A stretch of 64,000 bases of DNA, from positions 1,798,001 to 1,862,000 of the forward strand of contig NZ_JAMQJY010000001.1 in the NCBI RefSeq assembly GCF_023703085.1, written 5' to 3'. This document shows positions 24,745-61,020 of this stretch, piece by piece. The notes below the pieces were generated by a model, which saw only the letters and a program-made list of their open reading frames with translations, was not told where the DNA came from and searched no databases. Source of the stretch: Alkalicoccobacillus plakortidis. Lineage in GTDB: Bacteria > Bacillota > Bacilli > Bacillales > Bacillaceae_D. A program made the translations under genes and the position numbers. Every line of letters starts with the position of its first letter. Positions within the stretch are counted from its first letter, which is position 1.

Positions 24745-25012
24745 GGAATACGGAGTTAGCAAGAAACATTTAATCGTTAATAACAGCAGGAGCAGGTGCT
24801 TCGGCCATTCCAAGAGGAATGTGCAGCTAGCAAGAAAGAACGGAAATTGATCAAGAACGATTTGATCGTTAATAAGATCCCAAGTCAGTCAGCAAGAGAT
24901 TGGCTTGTTTAAATAAGAAGAATGATGAGTTGAGCAAGAAGTACTGCCTGATATCAAGAAGGTTGTTGAGTGGAGCAAGATCACGAACCTGTTACCAACA
25001 AACTTATTCGAG
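24745..25012 (+). repeat. Phased CAAG array A (3' of the Nudix gene)
   Basis: CAAG or close variants occur at 24760, 24831, 24852, 24873 (TAAG), 24893, 24914 (TAAG), 24935, 24955, 24976 and 24996 (CAAC), plus CCAAG at 24810. Steps are 20 or 21 bp, so pairs span 41 bp. The bases between differ from unit to unit. It has no convincing gene. It starts immediately after the Nudix stop and ends at a copy of the Nudix gene end, followed by a terminator. Confidence 0.75.
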
Positions 25013-25052
25013 ATGGAGAAGTGGTCTCTCAATATGTTGTGGATTCATTAAA
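25013..25052 (+). repeat. Second copy of the Nudix gene 3' end
   Basis: This 40-bp segment begins ATGGAGAAGTGGTCTCTCAA and closely matches the Nudix gene at 24700-24738, which begins ATGGAGACGTGGTCTCAATA. Both continue TATGT-GT-GGATT-ATTAAA with a few substitutions. The copy lies between array A and the terminator. Confidence 0.75.
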
Positions 25053-25060
25053 TATCTACT

Positions 25061-25101
25061 AAAAAGATCAGTTCCCTCAATACCAAGGAACTGATCTTTT
25101 T
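25061..25101. terminator. Bidirectional terminator
   Basis: AAAAAGATCAGTTCC and GGAACTGATCTTTTT form a strong stem with a short loop. T-runs follow on both strands, so it can end both the nrd/Nudix transcript and the convergent lipoprotein gene. Confidence 0.85.
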
Positions 25102-25119
25102 ATTTTTTATTGAGTGAGG

Positions 25120-25788
25120 TTACTTTTTAGGCGCTCGATATCCTGCATTTTCTGCTTCAGTTTCAGAACAGAAGTATTGAGCTACATTCTTTGTTCTCTC
25201 ATAATAAGTGCTTCCGGGAACGTGGTAAATACCATTTTCGCTCCCTTTTATATCACAGCTGGCTTGTTCTTCCGTATCGCTTTGGCTTGTTTGGTCTGAC
25301 TTAGTAGTCTGCTGAGCAGTTGCAGTTGCCTCTTCAAGCTCCGTTTCTTTCGTTTGAATCTCTTCTTTTAAATCTTCTTTATCACTCTCAAGTGAGGAGA
25401 TTTGTTCTGATAACTCTTTCTTCTCCTCGTTTAAACTCTCATTCACATTTTTCAGTTCATCATTGTTTTTTGTAAGGACATCAATTTCTTCTTCGTTTTT
25501 AGCAACTTTGTCTTCTAGTTCCTCAATGGATTCTTGACTTATTAACTCTTCTTCAAGTTCAGTTATCTTGTTTTCTGCTTCAAGCAATTCTGATTTCAGT
25601 TGATCATTTTCTTCCTGTAAATCTGATACCTGTTTCTCCTGCTCCTGCGTTAAGGACTGTAATTCATCTAAACTCGGTCCTGCTGACACATTTGAAGCAT
25701 CACCACATCCACTTAAAATTAACAGCAAACTAAACATAGCAACAATTATGTATTTCGAAATCAATTTTGGTTTAGTTGTGTTCATTTT
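25120..25788 (-). CDS. Coiled-coil lipoprotein with a C-terminal sunset-type domain
   Basis: About 222 residues from ATG 25788, which is preceded by GAGAGGGAAG. A signal peptide ends in the lipobox LILSGC, so the protein should be lipid-anchored outside the cell. Residues about 35-160 form a long Glu/Lys/Leu coiled coil. The last 50 residues hold [22 protein letters not shown], split by a turn, then [20 protein letters not shown]. This is the small Cys-containing module found at the end of many secreted Bacillus proteins (sunset domain). Function is unknown; a cell-wall spacer or sensor is possible. Confidence 0.75.
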
Positions 25789-25867
25789 TGTACTTCCCTC
25801 TCCTCTTATGTAAACTACAAATAAATACGAATCTATCATAATATTCGATTTATATAATTGCTACAGT

Positions 25868-26215
25868 TTCGACAAAAGCAGTCATTGCTCGCTATATTTA
25901 CCAAGAAGAATGACACTTTGAGCAAGATGACTTAGACTGTCACCAAGAAGATTGACTAGTTTAGCAAGAATAACAGGAATATACCAAGTAGAATATCGGG
26001 TGGAGCAAGATCAGATGACTCTTACCAAGATGAATATCGGGTTAAATAAGAACCACTCCCTCTTACCAAGACGGATAACTGATTAAGTAAGAACCACTGC
26101 ACCTCTCCAAGACGCATAACAAGTTAAGCAAGAAATACTGCCTCTCTCCAAGACGGATAACTGATTAAGCAAGAGCCACTCCCTCTCTCCAAGAGGAAGC
26201 TCAACCCTCTCCCTC
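25868..26215 (+). repeat. Phased CAAG array B
   Basis: Alternating CCAAGA and GCAAGA cores. CCAAG occurs at 26066, 26107, 26148 and 26189, exactly 41 bp apart, with GCAAG-type cores about halfway. Best unit: CCAAGACGGATAACTGATTA, then AGCAAGAACCACTCCCTCTTA. Earlier units are more diverged. The array lies between the lipoprotein gene start and the terminator of the M20 peptidase gene. No gene is supported. Confidence 0.8.
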
Positions 26216-26230
26216 AGCAGCAGCAAAAAA

Positions 26231-26273
26231 ACAAGCGAAACGGCCATTCGAATTGACCGTTTCGCTTGTTTTA
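26231..26273. terminator. Terminator after the M20 peptidase gene
   Basis: ACAAGCGAAACGG and CCGTTTCGCTTGT form a 13-bp stem, with A-run and T-run on the two sides, downstream of the peptidase stop on the minus strand. Confidence 0.85.
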
Positions 26274-26313
26274 AATTTTAGTGAAGCGAGAACTCGTAAA
26301 GGATTCTAGATTT

Positions 26314-27451
26314 CTAATTCTCTGCTAATCGCTCTATTACTGCAGCCAACAATTCAGCTCTTTCTACTAGTGTATCAATCTCCAAATACTCGCCCTCATT
26401 ATGTTGGTTACCGCCTTTTGGTCCTAGTCCATCAACAGTGGCGATCCCCATCGCCGAAGTGAAAGAAGCATCGGAGCCTCCACCCGTCGAGATATCGGTA
26501 ATCGGTAGTCCAATCTCTTCTCCTACCGACTTAATCGTATCAAGCAGTTCAATTGTTTGGCTATTTTTCTCCATTGGGGGTCTTGTGATGCCACCTTTAA
26601 GAATAATAGATGTGCCCTCTACATCTGGAGTTGCACAGATTTCTTTTATTTTTTCAGCTAGTGGATCTGCTTGGTCCATTTTTGAGATTCGGATATCTAC
26701 CTCAGCTTTGGCCGTTGGGGCAACTGTATTCACCGAGGAACCTCCACTAATCAAACCAACATTGACACTAATTCCATTTTCATGATCCGAGAGTGCATGA
26801 AGCTTAATGGTTTTATGTGAAAGCTCTTCAATCGCGCTACGACCTTTTTCAGGTTCAATGCCGGAATGTGCCGCTTGTCCTTTTACTTCTATCGAATATA
26901 GCCCTCCTCCTCTTCGTGAGGAGACCAGAGAACCGTCTACTCTTGCTTGGTTCCATAACAAGGGCGTGTTTCATTCCTTGTGCTTGTTCTTCTATAATGA
27001 CTCTCCCTACTGGAGCACCAATCTCTTCGTCACTTGTGAAAAGTAGTTTAATTGACTTAAGAGCTTCACTATTTTCTTCTAGAAGAGCTTTAACTGCGTA
27101 CAATGTTGTTACATGGCTTCCCTTCATATCTACAACACCAGGACCATAAGCGATTTCATCTTTTATTGAAAAAGGTCTCTTGGCTACCGTCCCTTCAGGA
27201 AATACGGTATCCATATGTAGAACAAGCAAAATGGATGGATCTACGGCATCTTTGTGCGTAACAATTAGCTGATTCCCGTATTCTTCTACCTCTCTCACTT
27301 CCGCATGCAAACCAAGATGTTCAAATTCAGTTTTCAAAATTTGCACGACTTCGTCTACACCTTTTTTGTTGTAAGAGCCACTATCTACATTTACAAGCTC
27401 TTTAAGCAATTTAAGCATCGAATCTTGCTGTTCCTCCAAATAAGCTTTCAT
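26314..27451 (-). CDS. M20 family metallopeptidase (carboxypeptidase G2-like; frameshift)
   Basis: Two overlapping frames join at 26945-26950, where GCTTGG stands for GCTGG. The corrected junction reads ALVMEPARVDGSLVSSRRG. Zinc-site motifs: LLVLHMDTVFPEG (H, D), GPGVVDMKGS, FTSDEEIGAP (E-E) and a C-terminal NQHNEGEYL with the last His. The dimerisation domain shows VKGQAAHSGIEPEKGRSA. The length of about 378 residues suits glutamate carboxypeptidase or ArgE/DapE relatives. The substrate is probably an N-acyl or peptidyl amino acid. No signal peptide is seen, so it acts in the cytoplasm. Confidence 0.88.
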
Positions 27452-27497
27452 CTAAAACACTCCAATCCTGTCTCTCTTATTATTCTACCACTAAAAA

Positions 27498-27556
27498 AAA
27501 GCTGTCACAAAAAGCGAGTACCATCCTTAGATGCTCACTGCTTTTGTGACAGCTTT
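27498..27556 (-). terminator. Terminator upstream of the M20 gene
   Basis: AAAGCTGTCACAAAA and TTTTGTGACAGCTTT give a 15-bp stem with a long loop that can pair further (GCGAG with CTCACTGC). On the minus strand it follows the 36-residue ORF and a T-run is present. Confidence 0.8.
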
Positions 27557-27564
27557 CTTTTGTC

Positions 27565-27675
27565 TTATAAAAAACTCAACGTAATCTTAACCCAACCGAT
27601 AATTGCTAACCATAGAGGCATACTTAGTAACGTTCCCCAGAGAACTCCTTCAAATAAGTTTCCTTCGTGCTCCAT
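27565..27675 (-). CDS. Small 36-residue membrane peptide
   Basis: A short ORF from ATG 27675 with a strong GGGGGAG site upstream. The predicted protein begins MEHEGNLFEGVLWGTLLSMP and ends with one hydrophobic helix (LWLAIIGWVKITLSFL). It lies between the response regulator gene and a terminator, so it may be the last gene of that unit. Single-helix peptides of this size are often small subunits of transporters or kinases. I do not recognise the family. Confidence 0.5.
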   Translation of the reverse strand: MEHEGNLFEGVLWGTLLSMPLWLAIIGWVKITLSFL

Positions 27676-27759
27676 TATGCTCTCCCCCTTTTATAAGGAG
27701 TTTAGACAATTATATGCTGTCCTATTCATAAAGTATTCGCTTTCATTTGGTAGATTCCT

Positions 27760-28473
27760 TTATTTTTTATTTGGTTCTATTGGTTTATACAATTTTTCCG
27801 GGCGCCCCACCACTCCATAGGATACATCACTTATTGCATCGCCTCTATCAACTAAAGCTGCCAAATACCTTCTAGCTGTTGAGCGACTGACTCCAAGAGC
27901 TTCTACTATCAACTCTGTAGTGGCTTCCCCTTGATCTTGTATAAACTCTAGTATTTTCTGATACGTAATTTGATCTATTCCTTTTGCGTAAGGGATTGAT
28001 TCAGGTTCTGCATGAGGTACTACGTTAAAAAGTTGATCAATAGAGTCTTGATCGAGTTTTTTCTGTTCGTTTGACCATGTAGTAACATTCAACCTGAATT
28101 GTTGATAGCGAGTCAGCATGTCCTTAAAGCGCTGAAAGATTAATGGTTTTGTCAGATAGTCAAATACACCATATCTTAGTGAATCGATAATCATATTTGC
28201 ATCCTTTTCGGCACTAATCATAATCACATCTATCTGTGGATACTCAGTCTTTAATTGCGGCAGAAACTCTATCCCATTCATATCCGGTAGATAAATATCT
28301 AATATGACAAGCTGTGGCTCAAGCACTTCTAGCAATGTATCTGTTTCATGCTTTGAAGAAGCAATACCTACCACTCTAAATCCATCTACCTTCTCAACAA
28401 AGCGTTTATTAATCTCAGCAACTTTTAGATCATCTTCAATAATTAAGACATCAATGATTTGGTTTTGCTCCAT
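27760..28473 (-). CDS. CitB/DctR-family response regulator
   Basis: About 237 residues from ATG 28473, which has AAGGAG nine bases upstream; an earlier Met at 28509 overlaps the kinase and has no site. The receiver domain shows the acidic pair LIIEDD, the phospho-acceptor in VILDIYLPDMNG, SAEK and the conserved Lys in YLTKPL. The C-terminus has a helix-turn-helix (EALGVSRSTARRYLAALVDRG) of the CitB/MalR/DcuR type. It should be phosphorylated by the kinase encoded just upstream. Such pairs sense C4-dicarboxylates or citrate and activate uptake genes. The target here is unknown. Confidence 0.9.
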   Translation of the reverse strand: MEQNQIIDVLIIEDDLKVAEINKRFVEKVDGFRVVGIASSKHETDTLLEVLEPQLVILDIYLPDMNGIEFLPQLKTEYPQIDVIMISAEKDANMIIDSLRYGVFDYLTKPLIFQRFKDMLTRYQQFRLNVTTWSNEQKKLDQDSIDQLFNVVPHAEPESIPYAKGIDQITYQKILEFIQDQGEATTELIVEALGVSRSTARRYLAALVDRGDAISDVSYGVVGRPEKLYKPIEPNKK

Positions 28474-28498
28474 TGAATTAAACTCCTTTTTAACCATT

Positions 28499-30079
28499 CT
28501 ATTGTTCAATTGGGATTATCACCTCTATTGTCGTAACGGCCTCCGTGTTCGACCGATGATGTAGAGTTCCCTCTAACCCGTCAACCATCTCTTGAACAAT
28601 ACGCATCCCGTATCCATGATTCTTTTGTGTTTTTGTCGAATAGCCAGTCTCTAATAATGAATCAATGGAAAGTGCGCCTAAGCCTACTCCCCAATCCTGA
28701 ACCATCATACTTAATGATTTGTCAGTGTACGTAAAAGAAATGGCGATTTTTTTTTGTTGTGCTCCTGGTTTAAGTACAGCATCCATTGCATTGTCTAACA
28801 GATTTCCCACAATGGTTAACACCGGCCGTTTTTGCTTATTATCAAGTGCAATTGGCTGTTCAGAAAGCAGGATATCACAGTCAATTCCTTTTTCCTCTGC
28901 TTGGTGCTGCTTGCCTATTAACAATGCGTGTAGCCAGCTATCTACTTGTTTATCAGTAAATGTGCTTGTTTTCTTAAACTGCGCCTGTGATTCCTCATCA
29001 ATATAATCAATGGCTTCTTGATATGATTCAAGCTGCAGTAGTCCAGACAACACATATAGTTTATTGGAAAATTCATGTGTTTGCGCTCGTAATGCGTCTG
29101 CATAATCTTGCGTTTGACTAAGGCGTTCTGTTAACTCTATAAAATCAGATGTGTCTCTAAGGCTAAAAACAGTGCCCATCCACTCCTTTCCTTTATTCCA
29201 GATCGGCACTTTTTGAACAACAATTCCTTTGGTCATTGAAATGGCTTCTTGATTTTTGTTTGTTCCGTCACTTTGTAACGATAACTCCGTAAGCACTGGT
29301 GAGTGGTCCATATCCGACATTGATGTACCTGTATAATCATTCTCAGGATCTAGATTTAATAGTTTCTTCGCTCGAGTGTTCATTAACGTAATCTCACCAA
29401 TTTGGTTAAACGCTACTAACCCTTCTCCAACCGATTCAACAATGGCTTGTTTCTCCTGATAAAGTCGTCCAATCTCATTTGGCTCCATACCTAATGTTGC
29501 ACGCTTTAGACTTCTTGTAATAAATACTGTACCTAAAAGACCCAAAATTAACGTTCCAAGTCCAATGAAGAGAACAATTCTTTCATATACTAGCGCAGTA
29601 GACTCAATTCCTTCTGCTAAAAAACCAACTGAGACAAAACCAATCACATTACCTTCAGACATAATTGGCGCTTTTCCTCTTACTGAAAGCCCTAAAGAGC
29701 CTTCCGCTTTTGAAATAATTGAGCGTCCTTCAAGTAAAACTGGATCGTTGTCACCCCCAACAGAAGGGAGACCAATTCTTGATTGTTTAGGGTGGTAATA
29801 ACGAATTCCTTCATGGTTAGCAATTGTGATAAATTCAGCTTCACTCACTTCAAACGCAGCTTTTGCCGTTTGGTTCATCGCGGCAGCCGGATCATTTGAT
29901 TGAAAGGCATCAATAATGGTTTGATTCAGCGCAAGTGTTTCCGCTACATCAAGAGCTCGTTGCCCAATTTCCTGTTCTAATGCATCCTCAATGACTTTCT
30001 GAAAAGAAATGCCTAAAATGCTGATAATAGATAAAATCAATACAATAATCAACAGCATTAATTTATATTGAAATTTCAT
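28499..30079 (-). CDS. CitA/DcuS-family sensor histidine kinase
   Basis: 526 residues. One helix at residues 7-25, an extracellular sensor domain of about 140 residues (with YYHPKQSRIGLPSVGGD, as in citrate and C4-dicarboxylate sensors), a second helix near 165-190, a cytoplasmic PAS domain, the phospho-acceptor motif AQTHEFSNKLYVLSGLLQL and an ATPase with NLLDNAMDA and GVGLG. The signal is probably a carboxylate. The kinase and regulator overlap slightly, so they are co-translated. No obvious transporter gene is adjacent; the YfcC-family gene at 33040 lies several genes away. Confidence 0.9.
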   Translation of the reverse strand: MKFQYKLMLLIIVLILSIISILGISFQKVIEDALEQEIGQRALDVAETLALNQTIIDAFQSNDPAAAMNQTAKAAFEVSEAEFITIANHEGIRYYHPKQSRIGLPSVGGDNDPVLLEGRSIISKAEGSLGLSVRGKAPIMSEGNVIGFVSVGFLAEGIESTALVYERIVLFIGLGTLILGLLGTVFITRSLKRATLGMEPNEIGRLYQEKQAIVESVGEGLVAFNQIGEITLMNTRAKKLLNLDPENDYTGTSMSDMDHSPVLTELSLQSDGTNKNQEAISMTKGIVVQKVPIWNKGKEWMGTVFSLRDTSDFIELTERLSQTQDYADALRAQTHEFSNKLYVLSGLLQLESYQEAIDYIDEESQAQFKKTSTFTDKQVDSWLHALLIGKQHQAEEKGIDCDILLSEQPIALDNKQKRPVLTIVGNLLDNAMDAVLKPGAQQKKIAISFTYTDKSLSMMVQDWGVGLGALSIDSLLETGYSTKTQKNHGYGMRIVQEMVDGLEGTLHHRSNTEAVTTIEVIIPIEQ

Positions 30080-30195
30080 TGGTTACACTCCCACAACTTT
30101 GACCAACCAATTCTACTAGCAATTGTTTGTTACGGCTATTATAGCATTGACATCCTACCACACCGAAACCAACGCAACTGAAACGTAAAAAGCTC

Positions 30196-30235
30196 AAAAA
30201 AAGGAGAGCACCCAGTTAAGGGGCCCTCCTCCTTC
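30196..30235 (-). terminator. Terminator after the 28-residue ORF
   Basis: GGAGGAGGGCCC and GGGTGCTCTCC pair imperfectly around TTAACT, followed on the minus strand by seven T. Confidence 0.6.
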
Positions 30236-30251
30236 TGAACCTTTCTGACCT

Positions 30252-30338
30252 TTATGCAGTCAGACCGCGCGTGCGCAGGTGGTTCATTTTGTTGCGAGAA
30301 TCCGCAACTACGTTAAGCCTTGTACAATCAACTTTCAC
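30252..30338 (-). CDS. Putative 28-residue basic peptide
   Basis: A GTG start at 30338 lies behind AAAGGAGGTGG, a very strong ribosome binding site, and a terminator follows the stop. The peptide starts MKVDCTRLNVVADSRNKMNH and ends LRTRGLTA. It has no membrane helix. It is the only gene-like object in the roughly 590-bp gap between the kinase gene and the NYN gene. It may be a real small protein or a leader peptide. I do not recognise it. The rest of the gap shows only weak hairpins, for example near 30520-30560. Confidence 0.5.
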   Translation of the reverse strand: MKVDCTRLNVVADSRNKMNHLRTRGLTA

Positions 30339-30670
30339 TGAACCACCTCCTTTCGATTGAGTTTATTATACTAGCTGCATGTCCATTTTGTAAAGACTTA
30401 TTTTTCGGAATATTTAAGTTAATAAAGACAAATTAAAAAAAATGGTTTAGATTTATCGGAACACGGGAAGTATTGATAATAAGATCAACAAGTGAGAATT
30501 AGTCTCCTTAAGATCAAGACAAAATAAAAAAGACAAGGTATGTCCCTGTCTTTGTAACGTATGAATTTAACGTACTAAATGTTAACGAATGCGTTTAACG
30601 AATCATTTACCTGTACCCCTATAATATGAAACTATCGGGGCGAAGTCAACCATTTATTCGTGAAGTTCTA

Positions 30671-31558
30671 TCATTTTCTGACAGAAACAGATTCTACAAA
30701 GGGCGTAACCGTGTTACGGCCTTTTTCTGTTAATGCTAGGCTAGGCTTGACTTCCCCTGTACTCAGATCCTTATTAATGGTCCCAATTAACTTCCTAACC
30801 TTTAATAAATCAATTAGTTCACTAGCGGAATTTGCCGGAATTGAGAACTTAAGAGAATATTGGTTTCTAAGCCATGGTGCACCGAGGTACAAATCACTAT
30901 CTCCGTACTTCTTCTCCCATTCATCAATAAATTGCAAGGACTGCTCCACATAAGCATCTAACTCATATTCTTGCTCTTCTAATTTAAGAAAGTTCCCTAA
31001 ATCTTCACTATGGTGCGAGTAATTTGTAATATCTGTATGTTTAGGTGCTGCCTCTGATAAATAAAATAAGTGTACTTGTTTCCCTTTATACATAAGACGA
31101 CTCATAATCGGAACCATATCACTATCAGCGGTCACAAACACATAACACGATATACTTTCATCCTTAAATGTACTTTCAATTGCATCAATACATAATTCGA
31201 TATCTGATGAATTCTTTCTAGAATCTCCATCCTTATCGTTTGAATACACATGTTTAATTTGAATACGTTGTTTTTGCAAGTCCGTTAGACTCGAACGAAT
31301 GCGTTGAAAATCTGCGTATGCTCGAAATGTACGAACACGGTCCTGTCCATATCGCTCCCATAAGCATTGAAACAGGTTTTTGCTTTTTTCTTCATGATTA
31401 GGGTTATGATTATATCGGTTCATTAACGTCCAGTATACATTATCATAATCTACAAAAATCGCTACATTATCATCTGGTAAGTTTGCATCATAATTAGAAT
31501 GGAGCAAGGCATCTAGCTTCTTTATAAATTGGTCATTTATTTGGTCTTTCATTTCCAT
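30671..31558 (-). CDS. NYN-domain (PIN-like) protein
   Basis: About 295 residues from ATG 31558 (GGGAG upstream). The N-terminal half is a NYN domain, a PIN-like RNase fold: VAIFVDYDNVYWTL, SSDIELCIDAIES and CYVFVTADSDMVPIM provide the conserved Asp residues. The C-terminal half, after about residue 190, looks like a small winged-helix unit (SASELIDLLKVRKLIGTIN). NYN proteins are thought to cut RNA. No partner gene is obvious. Confidence 0.78.
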   Translation of the reverse strand: MEMKDQINDQFIKKLDALLHSNYDANLPDDNVAIFVDYDNVYWTLMNRYNHNPNHEEKSKNLFQCLWERYGQDRVRTFRAYADFQRIRSSLTDLQKQRIQIKHVYSNDKDGDSRKNSSDIELCIDAIESTFKDESISCYVFVTADSDMVPIMSRLMYKGKQVHLFYLSEAAPKHTDITNYSHHSEDLGNFLKLEEQEYELDAYVEQSLQFIDEWEKKYGDSDLYLGAPWLRNQYSLKFSIPANSASELIDLLKVRKLIGTINKDLSTGEVKPSLALTEKGRNTVTPFVESVSVRK

Positions 31559-31691
31559 GGGTGTTGCTCCCTTCTGGCTCTTATACAAATTTTTGATTTC
31601 TTCATCTTATTTTCATCATAATTTATTCCCTACATCTGTATAATTGTGTATGCTTAAAAAGCACTTATACATAAGAAAGGGGAATGATTTT

Positions 31692-32012: not shown

Positions 32013-32020
32013 GAAAAATG

Positions 32021-32050: not shown

Positions 32051-32055
32051 TCACT

Positions 32056-34656: not shown

Positions 34657-34692
34657 AGGGCAAGAATCGGAGTGGAGTCCGGTTCTTGTCCT
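34657..34692 (-). terminator. Terminator beyond array C
   Basis: AGGGCAAGAATCGGA and TCCGGTTCTTGTCCT form a 15-position stem with two mismatches, then on the minus strand ATTCTTTTTTCTT. It would end the adenine deaminase transcript after array C. Confidence 0.7.
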
Positions 34693-34694: not shown

Positions 34695-35042
34695 GTTTAG
34701 ATGATTGTTATTCCGGTTGTGATACTTCATAAAGAGAGTAGAATCGGCTCTTAGTAGAGGAGCCTGGCTCTTGCTAAGGATGTTTGGCTCTTGTTAAAGA
34801 GGTCTGGCTCTTGCTAAAGAGGCCTGGCTCTTGCTAAAGTTACCAGTCTTCTTTGTGAAAAGGACTTAGTTCTTGCTAACAAGCCCAACTTCTTAATGAA
34901 GATTACAAAGCTCTTGCTATCGGACTATGTGGCTTGCTGAAAACCGGTTCGGTCTTGAGAATATGGAGATTCCTCTTGCTAACGCACTTTCCGTCTTGAT
35001 TCACCAAGCCATTTCTCTTGCTAATGGGGCTCCCTCTTGCTC
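34695..35042 (-). repeat. Phased CAAG array C (3' of the adenine deaminase gene)
   Basis: On the plus strand GGCTCTTG recurs at 34746, 34766, 34786, 34806 and 34826, exactly 20 bp apart. TTGC-type cores then follow at 34873, 34914, 34934, 34954 (TTGA) and 34976, with steps of 41, 20, 20 and 22. Read in the direction of the deaminase gene these are CAAG(A) cores. The array abuts the deaminase stop codon and ends at the terminator. Confidence 0.8.
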
Positions 35043-36743
35043 TTAATCCATCACTAACGGCACAACTTTACCCGCATTCACATCAATTAAGCCATGATCT
35101 GTTATTTTCAAAGCTGGACTAACAGGAAGTGAAAGTGTGCTCATCGACATAATTGGATTATAGTGCTTGTATCCGAGTTCACGCATTGCTCGGCATAACT
35201 CTTCCACACGTTTCGCCAATTTTTCAAGTGGTTCTTCTGTTAAGATGCCTCCGACTGGAAGTGGTACTTTTGCTTGAATCTTGCCTTCCCAGACGACACA
35301 GATCCCACCTTGCATGGAAATCACTTCATTTGCAGCCATTTTCATATCTTCGGTGTTCTCGCCAACAAGAAGTAAATTGTGATTATCATGGGAATACGTT
35401 GTCGCAACGGCACCGTGTTTTATGATATCGCCTGTAATTAGGCCGTGTGCTCGTGAACCACCTTTTCCATAACGTTCGAAAGTGGCAATTAATAAATGCT
35501 CGGTTTCTTGCCATTTCAGAAGTCCGTCATGCACATCAACATTTTCGTGTACTTCAGCTGTAAATGTCGAGCCATCCTGGACTTTCATGACTCTTGTAGG
35601 ATAGGTGCCATTCTCTTTGTCCACATGTACTTGAAAGTCTTTGTCAGTGAGTGGAGCTAATTTCACACTTTCATAAAAGGCTTCTGGAAATTGTCTGCTG
35701 ACATCATCAGAATTCTGTTCACTGTTCACTAACTCACCTGTTTTATAAACCGCGGTTAGTTCAAACTGTTCCAAATTAGAAAGCAAACAAAAATCCGCTA
35801 TTTTACCTGGTGCAATCACACCTCTGTCATGCATTCGCATTCTTTTTGCTGGTGTAAATGTACTCGCATAGATCACATCTTCAGGCGCCATTCCCATTTG
35901 CATCGCTTTTTTGACGATTTGGTTTAGGTGCCCTCGCTCTGCTAAGGAGTCGGCCATGACATCATCAGTGATAAAGCAAAAATGTTCACTTACATCCTGC
36001 TCACTTAAATACTCGATCACTTCAGGTGTCATTGATTTTTCTTGTATCTCAATGAACATTCCCGCTTCGATTCGAGCTTTTAATCCTTCAATGGTTTGAT
36101 GAGTATGATCGGAATCAACGCCAGCATAAATCATCTGGTGCAAATCAGTATCAAGTAATTTAGGGACATGACCTTCAATAATCGTCTCTGGATAGTTGGC
36201 TCGCATATGCTGAAGCAACCGCTTTGTTTTATTATCGCCTTCAGAGATAACATCGACGTAATTCATAATCTCACCTAAACAGATGATCTTTTCTGTTTGC
36301 ATTAAGTGATCAATATCCTCTATTTCAATTGCTCCACCCGTTGTCTCCATTGATGTTGCTGGTACAGAGCTCGGAATCGAATAAAACATATCCACTTCAC
36401 ATTGCTCACTCGCCCGAATCATTTCCGTTACTCCGTCAACACCAAAGACATTCGCCATTTCATGAGGCTCTGGAACAATTGTCGTCACACCATTTTGAAT
36501 TAGCGCTTTTGAAAAAGTTGCTGGTGTCACCATAGTGCTCTCAATATGGAGATGGATATCAATTAAACCAGGAACCATAAACTGCCCGTTACCATCCACA
36601 TGATGAGTCGCTTGAAAATAGCTTGTCTGCTTGTTGCCAATATAGAAAAATCGACCGTCTTTAATCGCTACATTTGCTAGCTTAAAGACTTTTTCATAAC
36701 TATTAAATACCTTTACATGTTCGATCAGTGTGTCAATCTGCAT
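35043..36743 (-). CDS. Adenine deaminase
   Basis: A 566-residue amidohydrolase converting adenine to hypoxanthine and ammonia. Metal-site motifs: GLIDIHLHIES (HxH), EIMNYVDV, EGHVPKL (His), GVDSDHTHQ (His) and CFITDDVMADSL (Asp). The C-terminal domain includes SHDNHNLLLVGEN and GGICVVWEGK, as in AdeC. It is the last gene of an operon that also encodes an ABC importer and a nucleoside hydrolase, so it may process bases released from imported nucleosides. GGAGG precedes the ATG. Confidence 0.9.
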   Translation of the reverse strand: MQIDTLIEHVKVFNSYEKVFKLANVAIKDGRFFYIGNKQTSYFQATHHVDGNGQFMVPGLIDIHLHIESTMVTPATFSKALIQNGVTTIVPEPHEMANVFGVDGVTEMIRASEQCEVDMFYSIPSSVPATSMETTGGAIEIEDIDHLMQTEKIICLGEIMNYVDVISEGDNKTKRLLQHMRANYPETIIEGHVPKLLDTDLHQMIYAGVDSDHTHQTIEGLKARIEAGMFIEIQEKSMTPEVIEYLSEQDVSEHFCFITDDVMADSLAERGHLNQIVKKAMQMGMAPEDVIYASTFTPAKRMRMHDRGVIAPGKIADFCLLSNLEQFELTAVYKTGELVNSEQNSDDVSRQFPEAFYESVKLAPLTDKDFQVHVDKENGTYPTRVMKVQDGSTFTAEVHENVDVHDGLLKWQETEHLLIATFERYGKGGSRAHGLITGDIIKHGAVATTYSHDNHNLLLVGENTEDMKMAANEVISMQGGICVVWEGKIQAKVPLPVGGILTEEPLEKLAKRVEELCRAMRELGYKHYNPIMSMSTLSLPVSPALKITDHGLIDVNAGKVVPLVMD

Positions 36744-43599: not shown

Positions 43600-43920
43600 T
43601 AAAGAGGAGTTTATCTGGCTGAAAGAGCGCGGAGCTTGGCGACACGAGTTGGTTCTTGGTAACGGATTGGCGATCTGGATTAGGAGGTGATGAGGCTTGG
43701 TGTCGGGAGTTCATTCTTGCTCCATCCTTGATCCGCCTTGGTTTTGCTCCTTTCTTCTTGCTCCATCCTTGATCCGCCTTGGTTTTGCTCCTTTCTTCTT
43801 GCTCCATCCTTGATCCCTCTTGGTTTTGCTCCTTCCTTCTTGCTCCATCCCTAATCCCTCTTGGTTTCGCTGCTCCTTTCTTTCTAAAAACATCCTAGCT
43901 CTTGCTAACCTCCTTGCTCT
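43600..43920 (-). repeat. Phased CAAG array D (3' of the PHP gene)
   Basis: On the plus strand TTGCTCCATCC starts at 43717, 43758, 43799 and 43840: three steps of exactly 41 bp. CCTTGG-type cores occur about halfway. Read on the minus strand the cores are GCAAG and CCAAGG. The middle units are nearly identical, the outer ones decayed. It lies between the terminators of two convergent genes. Frames across it encode only low-complexity repeats (for example KKKGAKPRRIKDGA) and are not credible genes. Confidence 0.8.
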
Positions 43921-53026: not shown

Positions 53027-53076
53027 CCTATAGGAAGAGGGAGCTACTAATGGGTTTCGAGATACTCCCTCTCTCA

Positions 53077-54293: not shown

Positions 54294-55008
54294 TTGATTT
54301 TCCCTTCTTTCCTTTTAACGTAAATTGAAAGTGGCATACGCCTTCTTTTATTACATATTGATCATGCTCTACTTCGATGTCTGGATTAAATCCTTTTGCT
54401 ACTGCTGGGTCAATCATCTCACAGTACAGAATTCCGTATTCACCCATTTCATCATCTACCCATTGCTGACCAAACGGACATTTAGTAAATGTTTGGTCAA
54501 TATTACCTTCCGTGAACACATTTTCAAATTCAAACAGATCACTTCTGCCCATATCATAATTTGGAAGATATTGTTCCAGGTCATTCGCATAGCCCATATG
54601 TTTAGCGCGTTTCGCTATTCCCTGTCCTCTCACTTCACCGAATGTTCGGACACCTTCACGAACAGCATGCTTGCCAGCTTCTCCATAATGATCAACAATC
54701 TCTTTGGTGACGTGAGCAAACAATTGGGCCATCCATGGATAAATGGACTGCTGATCTAGTTCCAAACCTTTTGTTGCTACGGTGTGATTAGGAAGATACG
54801 ATGCAAGACAATGAATTTCTCCTTCAAACGTTGCTTGATCAGAGATGAGCTTGGCACGTGCCAAGCCAAACGCTTCTATTCCATTTCTTATAAAACTTTT
54901 GGCCCCTTCCCCAAATTCTTTTGTAATTGCCGACTCCAAATGTGTGATAAGCTTTGCCGTGATCGAATACATTGAGAGTGTAGGCAACGGTTGTCGATTT
55001 GTTGACAT
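54286..55008 (-). CDS. L-2-amino-thiazoline-4-carboxylate (ATC) hydrolase family protein
   Basis: About 240 residues from ATG 55008, nine bases after GGAGG. The C-terminal half carries TFTKCPFGQQWVDDEMGEYG and LYCEMIDPAVAKGFNPDIEV, characteristic of ATC hydrolase-like proteins. In Pseudomonas, ATC hydrolase opens the thiazoline ring to N-carbamoyl-L-cysteine, which a carbamoylase converts to L-cysteine. The next gene, overlapping by eight bases, is such a carbamoylase, which supports this pathway. Confidence 0.75.
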   Translation of the reverse strand: MSTNRQPLPTLSMYSITAKLITHLESAITKEFGEGAKSFIRNGIEAFGLARAKLISDQATFEGEIHCLASYLPNHTVATKGLELDQQSIYPWMAQLFAHVTKEIVDHYGEAGKHAVREGVRTFGEVRGQGIAKRAKHMGYANDLEQYLPNYDMGRSDLFEFENVFTEGNIDQTFTKCPFGQQWVDDEMGEYGILYCEMIDPAVAKGFNPDIEVEHDQYVIKEGVCHFQFTLKGKKGKSND

Positions 55009-55086
55009 ATGCATTCTACCTCCTCATCAAATATGAACTTTTTCTATCTACCCAGTGTATCATGGGACTCAAATAAACATAAAAAA

Positions 55087-55110
55087 AACCGTCTTAGCAT
55101 TCAGACGGTT
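55087..55110 (-). terminator. Terminator after ribA
   Basis: AACCGTCT and AGACGGTT with an 8-base loop touch the RibA stop codon, followed on the minus strand by eight T. Confidence 0.82.
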
Positions 55111-55868
55111 CATTCATTGTTTGGACATGTTTCCTCATCACGTAAATGTCCAGAGCGATTTACTTTTGTATCCAGATACGCTTTATTAAATTCAGAGACA
55201 TCGCCCCATAAAGGAGTTCTCCCTAATACCGGCAATCCCGCGTTTCTAAGTGCTTCCAACTTCTTTGGATTATTTGTGATTAAGGTCACTGGTTTTGATC
55301 GTAATGTTTTGAGTACTTTAATGACATCATCATAATTTCTTGAATCATCAACAAATCCAAGAGCCTGATTCGCTTCTACCGTGTCGTATCCATTTTCCTG
55401 AAGGATATAGGCCATTGCTTTACTAAACAAACCAATTCCTCTTCCTTCGTGGTTTGCTAAATAAAATAGGGCCCCCGTCCCGTGTTCAGCAATCATCTTC
55501 ATCGATTGTTTTAATTGAAACCCACAATCGCATCTTTTACTTCCAAATATATCTCCAGTATGACAGATCGAATGCATTCGAATAATTGCATCCTCATCAA
55601 AAGAAAAATCGCCATACGTTAGAACACTCGATTGTTGGAATTCAGCTAAGTTTTCGGAGGATAATTTCTCGAGCATGCGATCAAAATCCTCTGTGACCTC
55701 TTGGCAATGTAACCAGCAATACCATTGAAACGTAACGGTTTCACCATATAAGTTAACAGGCAATTGAATGGGTCCAACTAGATAAATCGCCCCTTCATCT
55801 AAAGGGATCATTTGAATTTTTTCTTCTATACGTGAAAGACCTTTAACATCTATTTTCATTTCAGTCAT
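55110..55868 (-). CDS. ribA: GTP cyclohydrolase II
   Basis: About 252 residues from ATG 55868. RibA opens GTP to start riboflavin synthesis. Zinc ligands are in HSICHTGDIFGSKRCDCGFQ (three Cys). NHEGRGIGLFSKAMAYILQE and the C-terminal LITNNPKKLEALRNAGL are typical. It lacks the DHBP synthase domain of the fused Bacillus RibBA (B. subtilis RibA), so this is a stand-alone type, perhaps a second copy. It lies near flavin-dependent monooxygenase genes and could support their FMN supply (inference). Confidence 0.9.
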   Translation of the reverse strand: MTEMKIDVKGLSRIEEKIQMIPLDEGAIYLVGPIQLPVNLYGETVTFQWYCWLHCQEVTEDFDRMLEKLSSENLAEFQQSSVLTYGDFSFDEDAIIRMHSICHTGDIFGSKRCDCGFQLKQSMKMIAEHGTGALFYLANHEGRGIGLFSKAMAYILQENGYDTVEANQALGFVDDSRNYDDVIKVLKTLRSKPVTLITNNPKKLEALRNAGLPVLGRTPLWGDVSEFNKAYLDTKVNRSGHLRDEETCPNNE

Positions 55869-56010
55869 GGTAGATACCCCTTTGTTATTATCATGTCTCA
55901 TTATACTTTTTTTATAAACGGTACTGTTATCATATGCCCTGATCATCAGATTAGATAGTAGCCACTTTGATGTACCTTAGTATAAAAAAAGATACTAAAT
56001 CAAAAAAGAA

Positions 56011-56028
56011 CCCCATTTCCTTATGGGG
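56011..56028 (-). terminator. Terminator overlapping the monooxygenase stop codon
   Basis: CCCCAT and ATGGGG with a 6-base loop, then TTCTTTTTT on the minus strand. The stop codon of the upstream gene lies inside the hairpin. Confidence 0.7.
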
Positions 56029-57349
56029 CATTTCGATTTATCGGTTTTTTTAACCCTAGATGCTCTCTTAGATTAGAACCTGAGTAATCCGTTCGAACAA
56101 GTCCTCTCTCCTGCAGAATAGGCACAACTTTTCCAACAAAATCTTCAAGTCCACTTGGTAGCAAAGGAATCTGTAGCATAAATCCATCTGCTGCCTCTTC
56201 TGTGATCCATCGCTCCATGGCATCGGCTACTTGTTCTGCGGTGCCAACAAATTCATCCTTTCGTGCCGAATTCGTTAGCCTGCCATATAATTCACCTACA
56301 GTAAGTTGTTCTGTTTCAATTATTTTTTTCATTTCATCAAATTGACTTTGGATGCCGTTGACTTCTGGAAAGACAACTTCACTTGCTGGAGTATCATTGG
56401 AATACGGTGAAAAATCAACATTACCCATATAACCAGACAAAAAGCGCAAACCAACATCAACTGGTACAAGATCTTGTAACTCCTGATGCTTCTTAATGGC
56501 CTCTTCTTCCGTATCTCCGATGATAGGAGCAATCGCATGCAAAATGAGAAGATCCTCTTGCTGTCTTCCAAATTCATTTAGCCTGTCCTTTAACTCGCGA
56601 TAAAAAGCTTTTGCACCTTCAATATTGTCTTTATGGGCAAATACAACTTCTGCCGTTCTTGCCGCAAGTTGCTGACCGTCAACGGAAGATCCTGCCTGAA
56701 TAATAACTGGTTGTCCTTGGTCTGAGCGGGCAATATTAAGCGGCCCCTTCACTTGGAAAAAGTCGCCTTTATAATGAAGTTCATGAACCTTCTCTTTGTC
56801 ATAGAAGCTGCCTGTCTCTTTATTATAGGAAAAAGCATCGTCTTCCCAAGAATCCCAAAGCCCTTGCACAACGTCTATAAACTCCTCAGCGCGATGATAT
56901 CGCTCACGATGAGTGTAGTGGTCATGCCTGCTAAAATTTTGACCCGTTTCACCCGTTGCATCACCAGTCGTCACCATATTCCATCCTACTCTTCCCTTTG
57001 AAAGCATATCAACTGATGCAACTTGGCGTGCTAAATTATATGGTTCGTTGTAGGAAGTGGAAGCTGTAGCACCTAAACCTATATGTGTTGTAGCAGTCGC
57101 CATTGCTGTGATCAGGATGAGTGGATCAAACCGGTTTAGAATATTTGGATGGGAATCGTGATTAATTGCTAAGCTATCCGCAATAAAGGCTATATCAAAT
57201 CGCCCTTTTTCTGCAAGCTGTGCTAAGTGTTGATAATAGGAAACGTCAATGCTTGAACTTGGCTGAGCTGTTGGGTGACGCCAAGAGGCAACATGCATAC
57301 CTGTACCAATTAAGTACGCAGCCAGTTTCATTTGCTTTTTCTCGCCCAT
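56021..57349 (-). CDS. FMN-dependent monooxygenase, NtaA/SnaA/DszA family
   Basis: A 442-residue luciferase-like TIM-barrel enzyme using reduced FMN. Family blocks: MKLAAYLIGTGMHVASWRHP, RFDIAFIADSLAINHD, TATTHIGLGATASTSYNEPY and GRVGWNMVTTGDATGETGQN. Members oxidise sulfonates, sulfones, nitrilotriacetate or N-acetylcysteine-like compounds. Together with two MetQ-like lipoproteins and a second luciferase-like enzyme it forms a putative sulfur-scavenging cluster. It starts two bases after the neighbouring lipoprotein gene. Confidence 0.9.
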   Translation of the reverse strand: MGEKKQMKLAAYLIGTGMHVASWRHPTAQPSSSIDVSYYQHLAQLAEKGRFDIAFIADSLAINHDSHPNILNRFDPLILITAMATATTHIGLGATASTSYNEPYNLARQVASVDMLSKGRVGWNMVTTGDATGETGQNFSRHDHYTHRERYHRAEEFIDVVQGLWDSWEDDAFSYNKETGSFYDKEKVHELHYKGDFFQVKGPLNIARSDQGQPVIIQAGSSVDGQQLAARTAEVVFAHKDNIEGAKAFYRELKDRLNEFGRQQEDLLILHAIAPIIGDTEEEAIKKHQELQDLVPVDVGLRFLSGYMGNVDFSPYSNDTPASEVVFPEVNGIQSQFDEMKKIIETEQLTVGELYGRLTNSARKDEFVGTAEQVADAMERWITEEAADGFMLQIPLLPSGLEDFVGKVVPILQERGLVRTDYSGSNLREHLGLKKPINRNAP

Positions 57350-57350
57350 C

Positions 57351-58181
57351 TTAATAGGTCTCCTTATACGTACTCAGCTCTTCAAGCGTAATAAATGTAG
57401 GGAGATAGTTGCCATCATACGTCTCTTCAATAAAGTTTGCCGTCTCATCACTTTGATAGATATCAATAATCGTTTGAAAAGCTGGCTGATCCTTGTTCTC
57501 CTCAAGTGTTGCAATGATATTGATATAGGGCTTCGCTGTCGCGTCTTCATGAATCACCGCATCATCAAGCATTAAATTAGCTTGAAGAGCCACACCATTA
57601 TTAATAATTGCCGCATCTAAGTCTTCCATCACACGTGGCGCACTTGCTCCATCAACAGGCACAAATTCAAGATTTTTAGGATTTTCCTTTACCTTGTCCG
57701 CGCCCCCATTTCCATCAAAATCATCAACCAATTTAATGAGTCCTTCAGATTGTAACAATGCCAAAGCTCTTCCCCAATTGGAACTGTCGTTTGGAAGTGC
57801 CACTGTTGATCCATCAGCAAGTTCACTTATTTCTGTTATCGTGTCGGAATACATCCCAAGTGGTGCAATAATGGTGGTAGCAATAGGCACAATATTTGTT
57901 TCATTTGCTTCATTAAAAAGATCTAGATACGCAATGTGTTGAAACGCATTGATATCAATATCCCCTTCAACTAGAATTTGATTGGGGTCCACCGTCGCAT
58001 CAAGCTCTACTAGCTCCAGATCAACCCCTTCTTCTTCTGCCTTTTCTTGAATATAGGTCCACGTTTTTTCCTCAGAATTCCGAATCCCTACTTTTACCGT
58101 TTCATCATTCTGACCAGAAGACACAGAGCAGCCTCCAAGAAAAATACCAAAAGCTATACCTACAACGACTAGCCTTTTCAT
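57351..58181 (-). CDS. MetQ/NlpA-family binding lipoprotein (copy 1)
   Basis: About 276 residues from ATG 58181 (GGGGG upstream). Lipobox FLGGCS. NlpA-family signs: VKVGIRNSEEKTWTYIQEKA, NAFQHIAYLDLFNEANETN and VALPNDSSNWGRALALLQSE. These bind methionine or related sulfur compounds for an ABC importer, but no ATPase or permease gene is near. Only modestly similar to copy 2, so the two may bind different ligands. Confidence 0.85.
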   Translation of the reverse strand: MKRLVVVGIAFGIFLGGCSVSSGQNDETVKVGIRNSEEKTWTYIQEKAEEEGVDLELVELDATVDPNQILVEGDIDINAFQHIAYLDLFNEANETNIVPIATTIIAPLGMYSDTITEISELADGSTVALPNDSSNWGRALALLQSEGLIKLVDDFDGNGGADKVKENPKNLEFVPVDGASAPRVMEDLDAAIINNGVALQANLMLDDAVIHEDATAKPYINIIATLEENKDQPAFQTIIDIYQSDETANFIEETYDGNYLPTFITLEELSTYKETY

Positions 58182-58195
58182 GTCCAACCCCCACT

Positions 58196-59008
58196 TTAAA
58201 ATACTGGCACCACTGCACCATCATATTCATTCTCTATATACGTTCTCACTTTATCCGATTGAAGAGCCTCTGCTAACTTCTGAATCGCTTCAGTGTCTGC
58301 TTTTTCAGGAGTTGATACCAATATATTGACGTATGGTGATTCACTTCCCTCAATGATTAAAGCATCCTCTAACGGATCAAGATCAATCTCTAAAGCATAA
58401 TTTGTATTAATGGCCACCAGATCAAGATCATCCAAAGCACGAGGCAATAAAGGCCCGTCTAACGTCTTAAATTCTAAATCCAATTCATTTTCAACTATAT
58501 CTGCAACGGTAAAATCACTTGTCTTTTCCATTGTATCTAATTGGATAATGTCATTTGCCTCAAGCAATTGTAGTGCCCGCGACAGATTAACAGGATCATT
58601 TGGAATCGCCACCTCCGTTCCCTGCGCTACTTCATCGATAGAGTTATACGTTTTTGAATAAAAACCAAATGGCTCAATATGAATACCAGCTACTTCTACT
58701 AGATCAAGACCAATATCTTCGTTCACTTGATTTAAATACGGAGTATGTTGAAAGAAGTTTGCATCGTATTCTCCATCCGCTGTTTGTCTGTTTGTCTGTA
58801 CACCGTCTGTACTCAAGTCAACTTCGAGTTCGATGCCTTCAGCTTCCAAGTCCTCGGCAATAAGTTCAAGTAGCTCACCATGTGGAGTCGAGGCAGCCGA
58901 GATACGTAACACTTCTATCTCCTCATCACCCGAAGCACCTGATTCACTACCACAAGCTGTTAAACCCAATAAACCAATAAGAGTTATTGCTTTAGCGTAC
59001 GTTTTCAT
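58196..59008 (-). CDS. MetQ/NlpA-family binding lipoprotein (copy 2)
   Basis: 270 residues. Lipobox LTACGS. LRISAASTPHGELLELIAED, DANFFQHTPYLNQVNEDIGL and VAIPNDPVNLSRALQLLEAN match MetQ more closely than copy 1. Likely imports methionine or a sulfur compound together with transporter parts encoded elsewhere. It lies between copy 1 and the 59026 monooxygenase. Confidence 0.88.
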   Translation of the reverse strand: MKTYAKAITLIGLLGLTACGSESGASGDEEIEVLRISAASTPHGELLELIAEDLEAEGIELEVDLSTDGVQTNRQTADGEYDANFFQHTPYLNQVNEDIGLDLVEVAGIHIEPFGFYSKTYNSIDEVAQGTEVAIPNDPVNLSRALQLLEANDIIQLDTMEKTSDFTVADIVENELDLEFKTLDGPLLPRALDDLDLVAINTNYALEIDLDPLEDALIIEGSESPYVNILVSTPEKADTEAIQKLAEALQSDKVRTYIENEYDGAVVPVF

Positions 59009-59025
59009 CTAATCCCCCTCACTTT

Positions 59026-60029
59026 TTACACAATGCTCTCTGTTTGGAAAAACGATAATTGTCGTAGCTGTTGAAACGTATGAAGCTTCTCATCCACATT
59101 CGTTAGTGGAACATGAACAATGAGTTCATCTACATCTAATCCTTCAGTAAGCTCTTCTAACTTATTTTTGACGGTATCAATTGAACCCGTTATGACCCCT
59201 GATTCTTTTTTATCTATCCAATAGCTAATACCTGTTGATTCGCCAAAAGCAGCAGCACGTTCATAGGAATTGACATTAAGTGTACGACCATCTTCAACAT
59301 GCACTTTGAAGCTGTATGGATATTTATTAAGCGCCTTCGCTTCTTCATCTGTGTCGGCTACAATAATACCTACCGCAAGTAGGAATTGAGGCTGTGAATG
59401 GTCTCTAGCTTGAAACGTTTCTTGATAAACTGAAGCAGCAGCACGTAGTTCTTCAATCGTAGAATTAATAAAACTAGCAAACACATAGGAAACACCATGA
59501 GATGCGGCTAGTTCTGCACTCTTTGAACTTCCCCCAATAAATAAACATCGGCCGGCTTCTTTGGAATGGGCCATGCCACTAACTCACGCTCCTTCTCTCC
59601 ATCATTTAAAAACCCGAGTAACTCTCCAAACTTTTCATTAAATGCCTCACTATCAGAACCAGTGCCTTGAAGAGCTGTTGTTGAAATGTTTGTTCCACCA
59701 GGAGCTTTTCCAATACCAAGATCCACCCTATCCGGTTCAAGTGAAGCGAGCACATTAAAAACCTCAGCTACCTTAAAAGCAGGATAATGCTGAAGCATCA
59801 CTCCACCAGAACCAACACGAATACGCTTTGTTTTTGCAAGAATATAAGGAATTAATGCCTCAGGAGCAGAACCAGCTAATTCAGCAAAATTATGATGCTC
59901 AGATACCCAAAAGCGACTAAAACCTAACTCATCTGCAAACTGCGCCAGCTTCACCGTTTTTTTCAAGGCCTCCACAGCCGTTTCCTCTTCTGCAATAGGA
60001 CTTTGATCTAATATACTTATTCGCATCAT
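59026..60029 (-). CDS. Luciferase-like monooxygenase, MsnO8-type (frameshift)
   Basis: About 334 residues. LDQSPIAEEETAVEALKKTV, then RFWVSEHHNFAELAGSAPEA and LGIGKAPGG mark the MsnO8/LLM group. The frame breaks at 59531-59535, a run of five C that should be six. Correction gives VYLLGGSSKSAELAASHGVS. First gene of the cluster with two MetQ-like proteins and a second flavin monooxygenase. The ATG at 60026 is an equally good start. Confidence 0.87.
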
Positions 60030-60165
60030 CTATTCCTTCTTTCTATAGTATTAAATACTTATAAACTTAATCGGAATTAATATTCCACTAAATATAGCAC
60101 TGAGCTCACAGATAATCAATTGCGTTTTTGATAGGATTTATCTATCAATTGAATAAATTTCAAAT

Positions 60166-60196
60166 GAAAAAACCGCTGATTGAGTTTGAACAGCGG
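60166..60196 (-). terminator. Terminator beyond array E
   Basis: CCGCTG and CAGCGG with a 12-base loop, then TTTTTTC on the minus strand. It would end a homoserine dehydrogenase transcript after array E. Confidence 0.7.
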
Positions 60197-61020
60197 GATC
60201 GTTGTTATGGCTAGTGGATTGATGTTCTGGTTGGTGGGGGGGAAGTTGTTCTGGCTAATGTGTCGTTTTTCTTGGTTACAGGTTCTTGCTCTTGTTGGTG
60301 CAGGGGTTGGTCTTAGTAACTGCTCCTTGCTCTTGTTGCTGCGGGGATTCGTCTTGGTTACTGCTTCTTGCTCTTGATAATGCGGAGGTTCGTCTTGGTT
60401 TCAGTTTCTTGCTCTTGATTATGCTCCAATTCATCTTGGTTACTGCTCCTTGCTCTTGATTATGCTCCAATTCTTCTTGGTTACTGCTCCTTGCTCTTGA
60501 TGCTGCGTCGATTCTTCTTGGTAACTGATCCTTGCTCTTGATTATGCTCCAATTCGTCTTGGTTACTGCTCCTTGCTCTTGTTGCTGCGGAGGTTCTTCT
60601 TGGTAACTGATCCTTGCTCTTGATGATGCTCCAATTCGTCTTGGTTACTGCTCCTTGCTCTTGTTGCTGCGGGGATTCGTCTTGGTTACTGCTCCTTGCT
60701 CTTGATGCTGCGTCGATTCGTCTTGGTTACTGCTCCTTGCTCTTGATTATGCTCCAACTCGTCTTGGTTACTGCTCCTTGCTCTTGATGCTGCGTCGATT
60801 CGTCTTGGTTACTGCTCCTTGCTCTTGATGATGCTCCAATTCGTCTTGGTTACTGCTCCTTGCTCTTGATGATGCTCCAATTCGTCTTGGTTACTGCTCC
60901 TTGCTCTTGATGATGCTTCGATTCGTCTTAGTAACTACTCCTTGCTCTTGATGGTGCTTGGTTTCGGCTTGATAACACCTCCTCCCTCTTGCTAAACCTC
61001 CATCCATCTCTGCCCTTCCT
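60197..61020 (-). repeat. Phased CAAG array E (about 20 units of 41 bp)
   Basis: The largest array, about 820 bp. GATGATGCTCC starts at 60827, 60868 and 60909 (the last with CTTCG), exactly 41 bp apart. On the plus strand each unit has a constant part (TCTTGGTTACTGCTCC then TTGCTCTTG) and a variable part of about 16 bp in several forms, for example ATGATGCTCCAATTCG, ATGCTGCGTCGATTCG and TTGCTGCGGGGATTCG. Read on the minus strand the cores are CCAAGA and GCAAG. The array begins just after the homoserine dehydrogenase stop and ends at a terminator. No credible gene. Confidence 0.88.

Follow-up and report, generated by a model that had tools for sequence, protein, structure and literature searches.

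We describe here dispersed arrays of short DNA words, spaced two helical turns apart, in the bacterium Alkalicoccobacillus plakortidis. They were studied from a window of 64,000 nucleotides (NCBI RefSeq assembly GCF_023703085.1, contig NZ_JAMQJY010000001.1, positions 1,798,001 to 1,862,000 of the forward strand), to which coordinates below refer unless a contig is named. Five arrays in the window place a CAAG core at steps of 20 or 21 bp. Such arrays are helically phased, conserve their cores over their spacers, occupy gaps with a gene 3′ end in either orientation, share no consensus RNA fold in 13 copies, and do not code for protein. With middling confidence, we read them as a DNA element whose one helical face would be recognized by a putative cooperative DNA-binding protein. 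An earlier note, made from the letters of the window, had reported the five arrays; all five were confirmed in the sequence, and the pattern is larger than was claimed, CAAG being one of about 10 words that share this spacing in the host genome.

Extent in the host genome

The host genome (4.37 Mb in 9 contigs; G000 below) contains 565 overlapping triple-core matches (267 + 298), versus 3 (1 + 2) for the reversed pattern. A 460-kb region containing the window has 121 same-strand CAAG pairs at 20 bp and 127 at 21 bp, with 18 at 19 bp and 16 at 22 bp; the expectation is 24.8 per distance, and distances off the multiples give 13 to 59. Among the distances tabulated there (4 to 129 bp), the excess repeats at 41, 61/62, 82, 102/103, and 123 bp. 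Array controls gave almost nothing: three second-order Markov sequences yielded 0 arrays, and the reversed sequence yielded 0 and 1 on its two strands. A sample of 860 kb of the host genome holds 24 CAAG arrays, versus 0 and 2 in the reversed sequence. The 20/21-bp excess for which the earlier note had proposed a search is genome-wide, and the pattern recurs in relatives. No single recent tandem duplication lies behind all the arrays; that outcome, or the lack of a genome-wide excess, had been named as fatal to the idea, and neither came true.

Conservation and phase

Three dispersed homologous arrays were identical in 34/34 comparisons at −2, +1, +2, and +3 and 50 to 88% identical elsewhere, with +1 to +3 conditioned by detection with [CT]AAG and −2 free. 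Orthologous arrays were compared between two congeners, G001 and G004, by setting G001 arrays against the same intergenic site in G004, so that core conditioning applies to the G001 side only. Matching flanks were present for 20 of the 23 arrays of G001, and 5 pairs were kept (lengths within 45 bp of each other, each flank above 75%); the 15 dropped differed mostly in copy number or length. Over 56 cores, agreement was 56/56 at +2 and +3, 55/56 at +1, 52/56 at −2, 51/56 at the C/T position, and 37/56 at N (−1). The core A-N-Y-A-A-G is thus 91 to 100% identical (N, 66%) and other positions 59 to 84% (an offset with 3 cells omitted), with 83% agreement in the flanks, coding included. Steps agree between the species except where one side misses a core. 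Both comparisons bear out the claim that core and spacing are kept while the rest drifts. Beyond this pair of species, shared sites are few: 2/20 merged G000 loci, array D being one, have a flanking gene in common with an array locus of another species, the loci compared covering part of those genomes.

By our own reading, 17 of the 23 G001 arrays fit one 12-core pattern (21 21 20 21 21(22) 20 21 20 21 21 21), 9 with all twelve cores and 8 with cores missing; of the others, 3 follow a second pattern and 3 are short. Mean steps are 20.51 bp in the host genome, 20.74, 20.75, 20.65, and 20.47 bp in congeners, 20.27 bp in Gracilibacillus, and 20.34 bp in Sporosarcina. The helical phasing proposed in the earlier note is supported in every pattern listed, where cores lie along one line with a root mean square deviation of at most 0.59 bp.

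Information in the CAAG logo peaks between about −4 and +8, with a weaker C-richness on the opposite face. Position −1 within a single array may be C, G, or T but is rarely A, and +6 is mostly C or G. Such restricted yet mixed letters look like a binding motif and not mere copying.

Other words, one period

Any 5-letter word with three or more different letters was entered in a period scan of the 860 kb. With at least 5 chained copies at step d or d + 1 (d, 11 to 44), loci were found only at 19 to 21 and 39 to 41; with at least 4 copies (d, 8 to 44), only at 19 to 21 and 38 to 42; and with at least 5 copies (d, 45 to 130), only at 59 to 62, 79 to 83, 99 to 104, and 122 to 123. These merge into 33 loci. 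CAAG, the commonest of the words sharing the step of about 20.5 bp, leads in 16 of them by our own reading. The others, given on one strand, are ATCGTTTCA/ATCGCTCCA, CGATATC, CGGGTA, GGTAAT, CTCATGGAGC, CTCGATTCC, CGCGCA, CATGAGCGC, and TGTTA. A hybrid word, CATGC[AG]AGA, was counted with CAAG; the total is about 10 words, or more if related words are split.

Outside the window, arrays of words other than CAAG with a 20/21-bp step were seen on host contig C1 at 1106755, 1180092, 1323841, 1421675, 1660459, 1884512, 1900422, 1907166, 1917006, and other positions. In one of these arrays, ATCGTTTCA and ATCGCTCCA are mixed in phase. TGGAGC, the complement of GCTCCA, gives matches at this spacing in 21/397 genomes of the order.

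Stretches taken without selection gave no arrays in G217 or G289 (100 kb from each), in G175 or G300 (80 kb from each), or in Escherichia coli (50 kb); an unselected 80-kb stretch of G225 gave one locus, inside an open frame. Arrays are present in G043, G219, G075, and G004, which were picked for known matches.

Genomic position

Gap classes were assigned for 38 arrays (24 CAAG, 14 other words) with genes from our own open reading frame and codon-usage predictor and no published gene finder. The gaps are convergent for 14 and tandem for 24, and none is divergent; all 38 thus contain a gene 3′ end, where the earlier note had suggested looking for enrichment. Divergent gaps make up 76/622 gaps and 13.5% of intergenic bases. 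The chance of 0/38 is about 0.004 to 0.007, calculated by hand for independent arrays, which these are not entirely. Rows of transcription-factor operators would be located at promoters, and 0/38 arrays are in divergent gaps; a tandem gap may still hold the promoter of the following gene.

Two further sequences accompany some arrays. The palindrome AAAATGNNCATTTT, with two wobble letters allowed, has 7 sites in the 860 kb, 4 of them just 5′ of a CAAG array, 1 located 105 bp 3′ of one, and 2 distant; by eye, it is found at about nine G001 arrays. A leader like ATAAGGAANAAAAATGNNCATTTTT, readable both as a palindrome and as a ribosome-binding site plus start codon, stands beside some arrays (host contig C1 at 1335931, 1520314, 1520630, 1715396, and 1865353; loci L307 and L308). 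At 1865050 to 1865585 of C1, two successive arrays have between them an apparent copy of the downstream gene's start, cut short.

Arrays in the window

Array coordinates are those of chained [CT]AAG cores, converted from genome to window positions; the C of the core is occasionally replaced by T. Array A (24811 to 24979, + strand) has 9 cores at steps of 20 21 21 20 21 21 20 21 and stands behind a + strand gene ending at 24744. Its first CAAG (24760) is out of phase with the remaining cores. Array B (25902 to 26193, + strand) has 15 cores at steps of 20/21 bp and is antisense to both neighbors, lying between the start of the − strand gene 25120 to 25839 and the terminator-like hairpin of a − strand gene at 26314. 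A two-way terminator-like hairpin, seen by eye and in a hairpin scan, marks its 3′ end (26229 to 26276, no strand assigned), and a 16th CAAG of the chain (26232) is part of the terminator stem and not of the array. Array C (34750 to 35039, − strand) has 14 cores directly 3′ of the stop codon of the − strand gene 35043 to 36743, of the adenine deaminase family, and is followed at its far end by a terminator-like hairpin (34661 to 34690, − strand; by eye). Array D (43635 to 43904, − strand) has 12 cores in a 41-bp double unit. Array E (60271 to 60991, − strand) has 36 cores, with the 41-bp double unit repeated about 17 times, behind the gene 61031 to 62077, of the homoserine dehydrogenase family.

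The earlier note had read exact 41-bp steps in arrays B, D, and E, and Tandem Repeats Finder reports period 41 in all three (26019 to 26198, 4.4 copies; 43710 to 43882, 4.2 copies; and 60270 to 60958, 16.8 copies, respectively). Recent unit duplications are present in these three, and the units of arrays A and C are drifted. By eye, the 3′ end of the gene preceding array A (24700 to 24744, + strand) has an imperfect copy across the array, at about 25013 to 25062, as if the array had inserted with a target copy; a terminator-like hairpin with a T run follows (25065 to 25110, + strand).

Distribution

All five Alkalicoccobacillus genomes searched, Alkalicoccobacillus porphyridii P16 and Alkalicoccobacillus murimartini DSM 19154 among the congeners, carry arrays (83 to 1081 matches; control, at most 6). 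Among 41 genomes of the family, one outside the genus is well over background (25 matches), and the next has 6. In a sample of 299 genomes of the order, 295 lie outside the genus; 9 of these, belonging to 8 families, reach 20 matches or more with a control of at most one tenth (our own count). In a sample of the phylum (398 genomes), a three-core match was found in 68, usually no more than one or two per genome. The larger counts outside the order include those of G526, G557, and G684, which are 7-bp simple repeats, and those of G455, G466, G468, G469, G730, and G772.

A scan of named genomes gave at least 120 stretches, many of them open in some frame or simple repeats. Among the matches listed, arrays free of open frames are found in Alkalicoccobacillus, Oceanobacillus senegalensis, Sporosarcina, Fictibacillus, Gracilibacillus, Pontibacillus, Sutcliffiella, Bacillus pinisoli, and two Bacteroidota. 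The two Bacteroidota loci (L192, Marinilabiliaceae JC017; L149, Flammeovirgaceae UBA5008) are CAAGA arrays with 20/21-bp steps. Flanks differ between lineages, for example, GATATCAAGAA in Sutcliffiella and CGCTCAAGAA in Sporosarcina. Arrays of this kind are also present in other families of the order, and in each the flanking letters are different. All three Halobacillus loci among the matches listed carry the flank AACGCGCGCAAGA, and coding is possible there because all three are open in at least one frame. The whole genome of G128 (family f8) has 67 + 64 matches to the reversed control pattern, and its genus may hold arrays of another word.

Fifty viral contigs have the CAAG pattern, and in 32 of these at least one frame is open. 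The remaining 18 were inspected by eye only and are unconvincing as such arrays, several resembling gene ends or short-unit repeats; a phage origin was tentatively set aside on this inspection. At least five of the 18 are short 20- to 21-bp tandem repeats; such repeats with CAAGA, open in no frame, were seen in viral contigs L257, L282, L288, L292, and L296.

Proposed explanation and rivals

Our preferred reading is a row of sites for a DNA-binding protein that acts cooperatively. A two-turn step with a free back face suggests one-sided contacts with the helix, and a conserved core and step with a drifting spacer suggest a trans-acting reader. The arrays would be long rows of putative binding sites, every core facing the same side, with the mean step of 20.3 to 20.75 bp equal to 10.1 to 10.4 bp per turn. 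In the CAAG family, A-N-[CT]-A-A-G and the weaker preferences from −4 to +8 would form a contact face of about 13 bp, and the back, of 7 to 8 bp, would carry little information. An oligomeric or cooperative protein would fill the row to give a rigid or wrapped nucleoprotein stretch, which, as a guess, might insulate neighboring transcription units or anchor the chromosome. The several words may have different reader proteins, or a single family whose specificity shifted may read them. A broader version would make the arrays a general addressing system of this bacterial order, with rows of short words on one face at a two-turn step, many words in one geometry, placed behind genes to tether, insulate, or pair loci; we consider it rather unlikely.

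Several results weigh against a binding-site row. Spacers of CAAG arrays in the 860 kb shift from G-rich to C-rich in the 5′ to 3′ direction, whatever the gene orientation, which is unexplained by simple binding sites. The phase is mildly better than shuffled step order (mean z of −0.1 to −2.1 in eight sets, +0.8 for the two Bacteroidota loci); the effect is mild because unit duplication makes much of the regularity within arrays. A strict phase order, only mildly better than shuffled steps, was rejected. Orthologous arrays show only 3 gap cells, a scarcity that is partly by choice because the comparison was restricted to pairs of similar length, and 2/5 pairs come from one tandem cluster. In G004, a complete genome, about 21/23 array groups run along the presumed leading strand (our own count, taking coordinate 0 as the origin and omitting one lone match), and only 9/24 arrays do so in the G000 sample; a single rule of orientation to replication holds in the former and fails in the latter. 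Other periods exist elsewhere, with one 17/18 locus in G004 (four copies) and single loci at 31, 36, and 37 in G075. Among 771 proteins predicted in the 860 kb with our own gene predictor, a paralogue search showed no large DNA-binding paralogue family for the roughly 10 words, and no candidate binding protein emerged. The idea of one paralogous binding protein per word was dropped on that result.

The strongest rival is a selfish or neutral minisatellite, spread by unit duplication and copying between loci, in which a step of the copying machinery, and not a cell function, would set both the 20.5-bp period and the core. We think it a possible but less probable account. In its favor, blocks of 41, 62, and about 278 bp have been duplicated within arrays, and homologous arrays stand at distant loci. 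At the array D junction, A. porphyridii also has a CAAG array in the same orientation, with the units wholly replaced and the 41-bp unit become a 62-bp unit of three. Behind the ortholog of the gene next to array E, no CAAG chain of more than two cores was found within 1.49 kb in four congeners; in A. murimartini, this ortholog is directly followed by a luciferase-like gene that resembles, by eye, the next gene of the window. Copying of this kind does not account as readily for old arrays whose mutually dissimilar units retain core and spacing, for orthologous arrays that retain the core while spacers diverge, or for the lack of any other period in the 860 kb at the thresholds used. Nor are these ordinary minisatellites (variable-number tandem repeats), since diverged arrays keep A-N-Y-A-A-G and the steps.

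An RNA element, in which the arrays would act within 3′ untranslated RNA as serial sites of a putative RNA-binding protein, is improbable. In its favor, the element is asymmetric, and arrays A, C, and E have, by eye, a stop codon on one side and a terminator-like hairpin on the other, with CAAG on the sense strand. However, CAAG arrays in tandem gaps are sense in 7 cases and antisense in 7 (the orientation of other words is arbitrary, and they were left out), and by a simple rule a terminator-like hairpin separates the gene end from the array on 24/52 gene-end sides. RNAalifold on 13 copies gave 0 consensus pairs, and the window has 0 Rfam matches at the gathering score. Single folds of 14 arrays range in z from −6.7 to +3.2, with 11 above −2; a tandem-duplicated array is among the three lower ones, as is array B together with its terminator. 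Since the 14 single folds and the 13-copy consensus share nothing, and low folds are few and partly due to duplication or a terminator, a common RNA structure was rejected. The phased RNA motif that the earlier note had offered is not supported, given the lack of an orientation rule and of a consensus fold. Coding, with each unit open in a frame set by AAG, was also rejected: stop counts in the five Alkalicoccobacillus genomes leave no core-anchored frame stop-free, and the 20/21-bp steps shift the reading frame through the arrays. Free orientation, the frequent place beyond hairpins, and the lack of a fold or frame point to DNA rather than RNA. This, with the suggested one-sided contacts and trans-acting reader, is why we favor binding-site rows.

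Highly improbable is the idea, inspired by repeat-induced point mutation (RIP) in Neurospora, where short homologies spaced 11 to 12 bp apart are detected according to PMC4858203, that same-word arrays are pairing addresses clustering loci by direct duplex-duplex homology at fixed helical positions: a free word, a fixed spacing, and a word common to several arrays of one genome would suit it, but the variation of −1 and +6 among allowed letters in a single array and the recurrence of CAAGA in many families are more like protein specificity.

If binding-site rows are the right reading, it is helical spacing and not the letters that would define this chromosomal element, present in several families of a much-studied bacterial order. 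This raises testable questions about a protein that may cover the DNA behind genes and about a possible layer of chromosome architecture based on helical phase. Should the arrays prove selfish, repeats at one sole period in 860 kb would still be a new fact about bacterial satellite formation.

Comparison with known systems

No description of such arrays was found among the titles and abstract openings listed by searches of the open-access literature. CRISPR arrays consist of near-identical repeats of some 20 to 50 bp with unique spacers between them; here the conserved part is 4 to 6 bp, the spacers are 14 to 16 bp and often duplicated, and a scan limited to ten window genes gave no cas families among its Pfam matches. 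Plasmid iterons are direct repeats about two turns apart at one locus beside a replication gene on a mobile replicon, whereas the present arrays occupy dozens of chromosomal loci with many words. The repetitive extragenic palindromes and bacterial interspersed mosaic elements (REP/BIME) of enterobacteria are likewise dispersed at gene 3′ ends. They are palindromic, but our arrays are direct repeats without palindromic folding, as the 0 consensus pairs in 13 copies indicate.

The TAACTGA repeats form sets of a short word in direct orientation at many intergenic places, patchy across phyla and of open function; in the Maribeggiatoa genome, two to six copies stand mostly just upstream of start codons, according to PMC4679880. 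There, one heptamer is fixed, whereas here the spacing is fixed and the words differ. Sites of ArcA, a response regulator, are two to five direct repeats in helical phase at promoters, 11 bp apart with some outliers 22 bp away, in the cases given in PMC3798270. ArcA-type sites and the present arrays are both helix-phased direct repeats; the arrays differ in their size, from 9 cores to more than 40, in their two-turn spacing, and in their place in gaps that contain a gene 3′ end.

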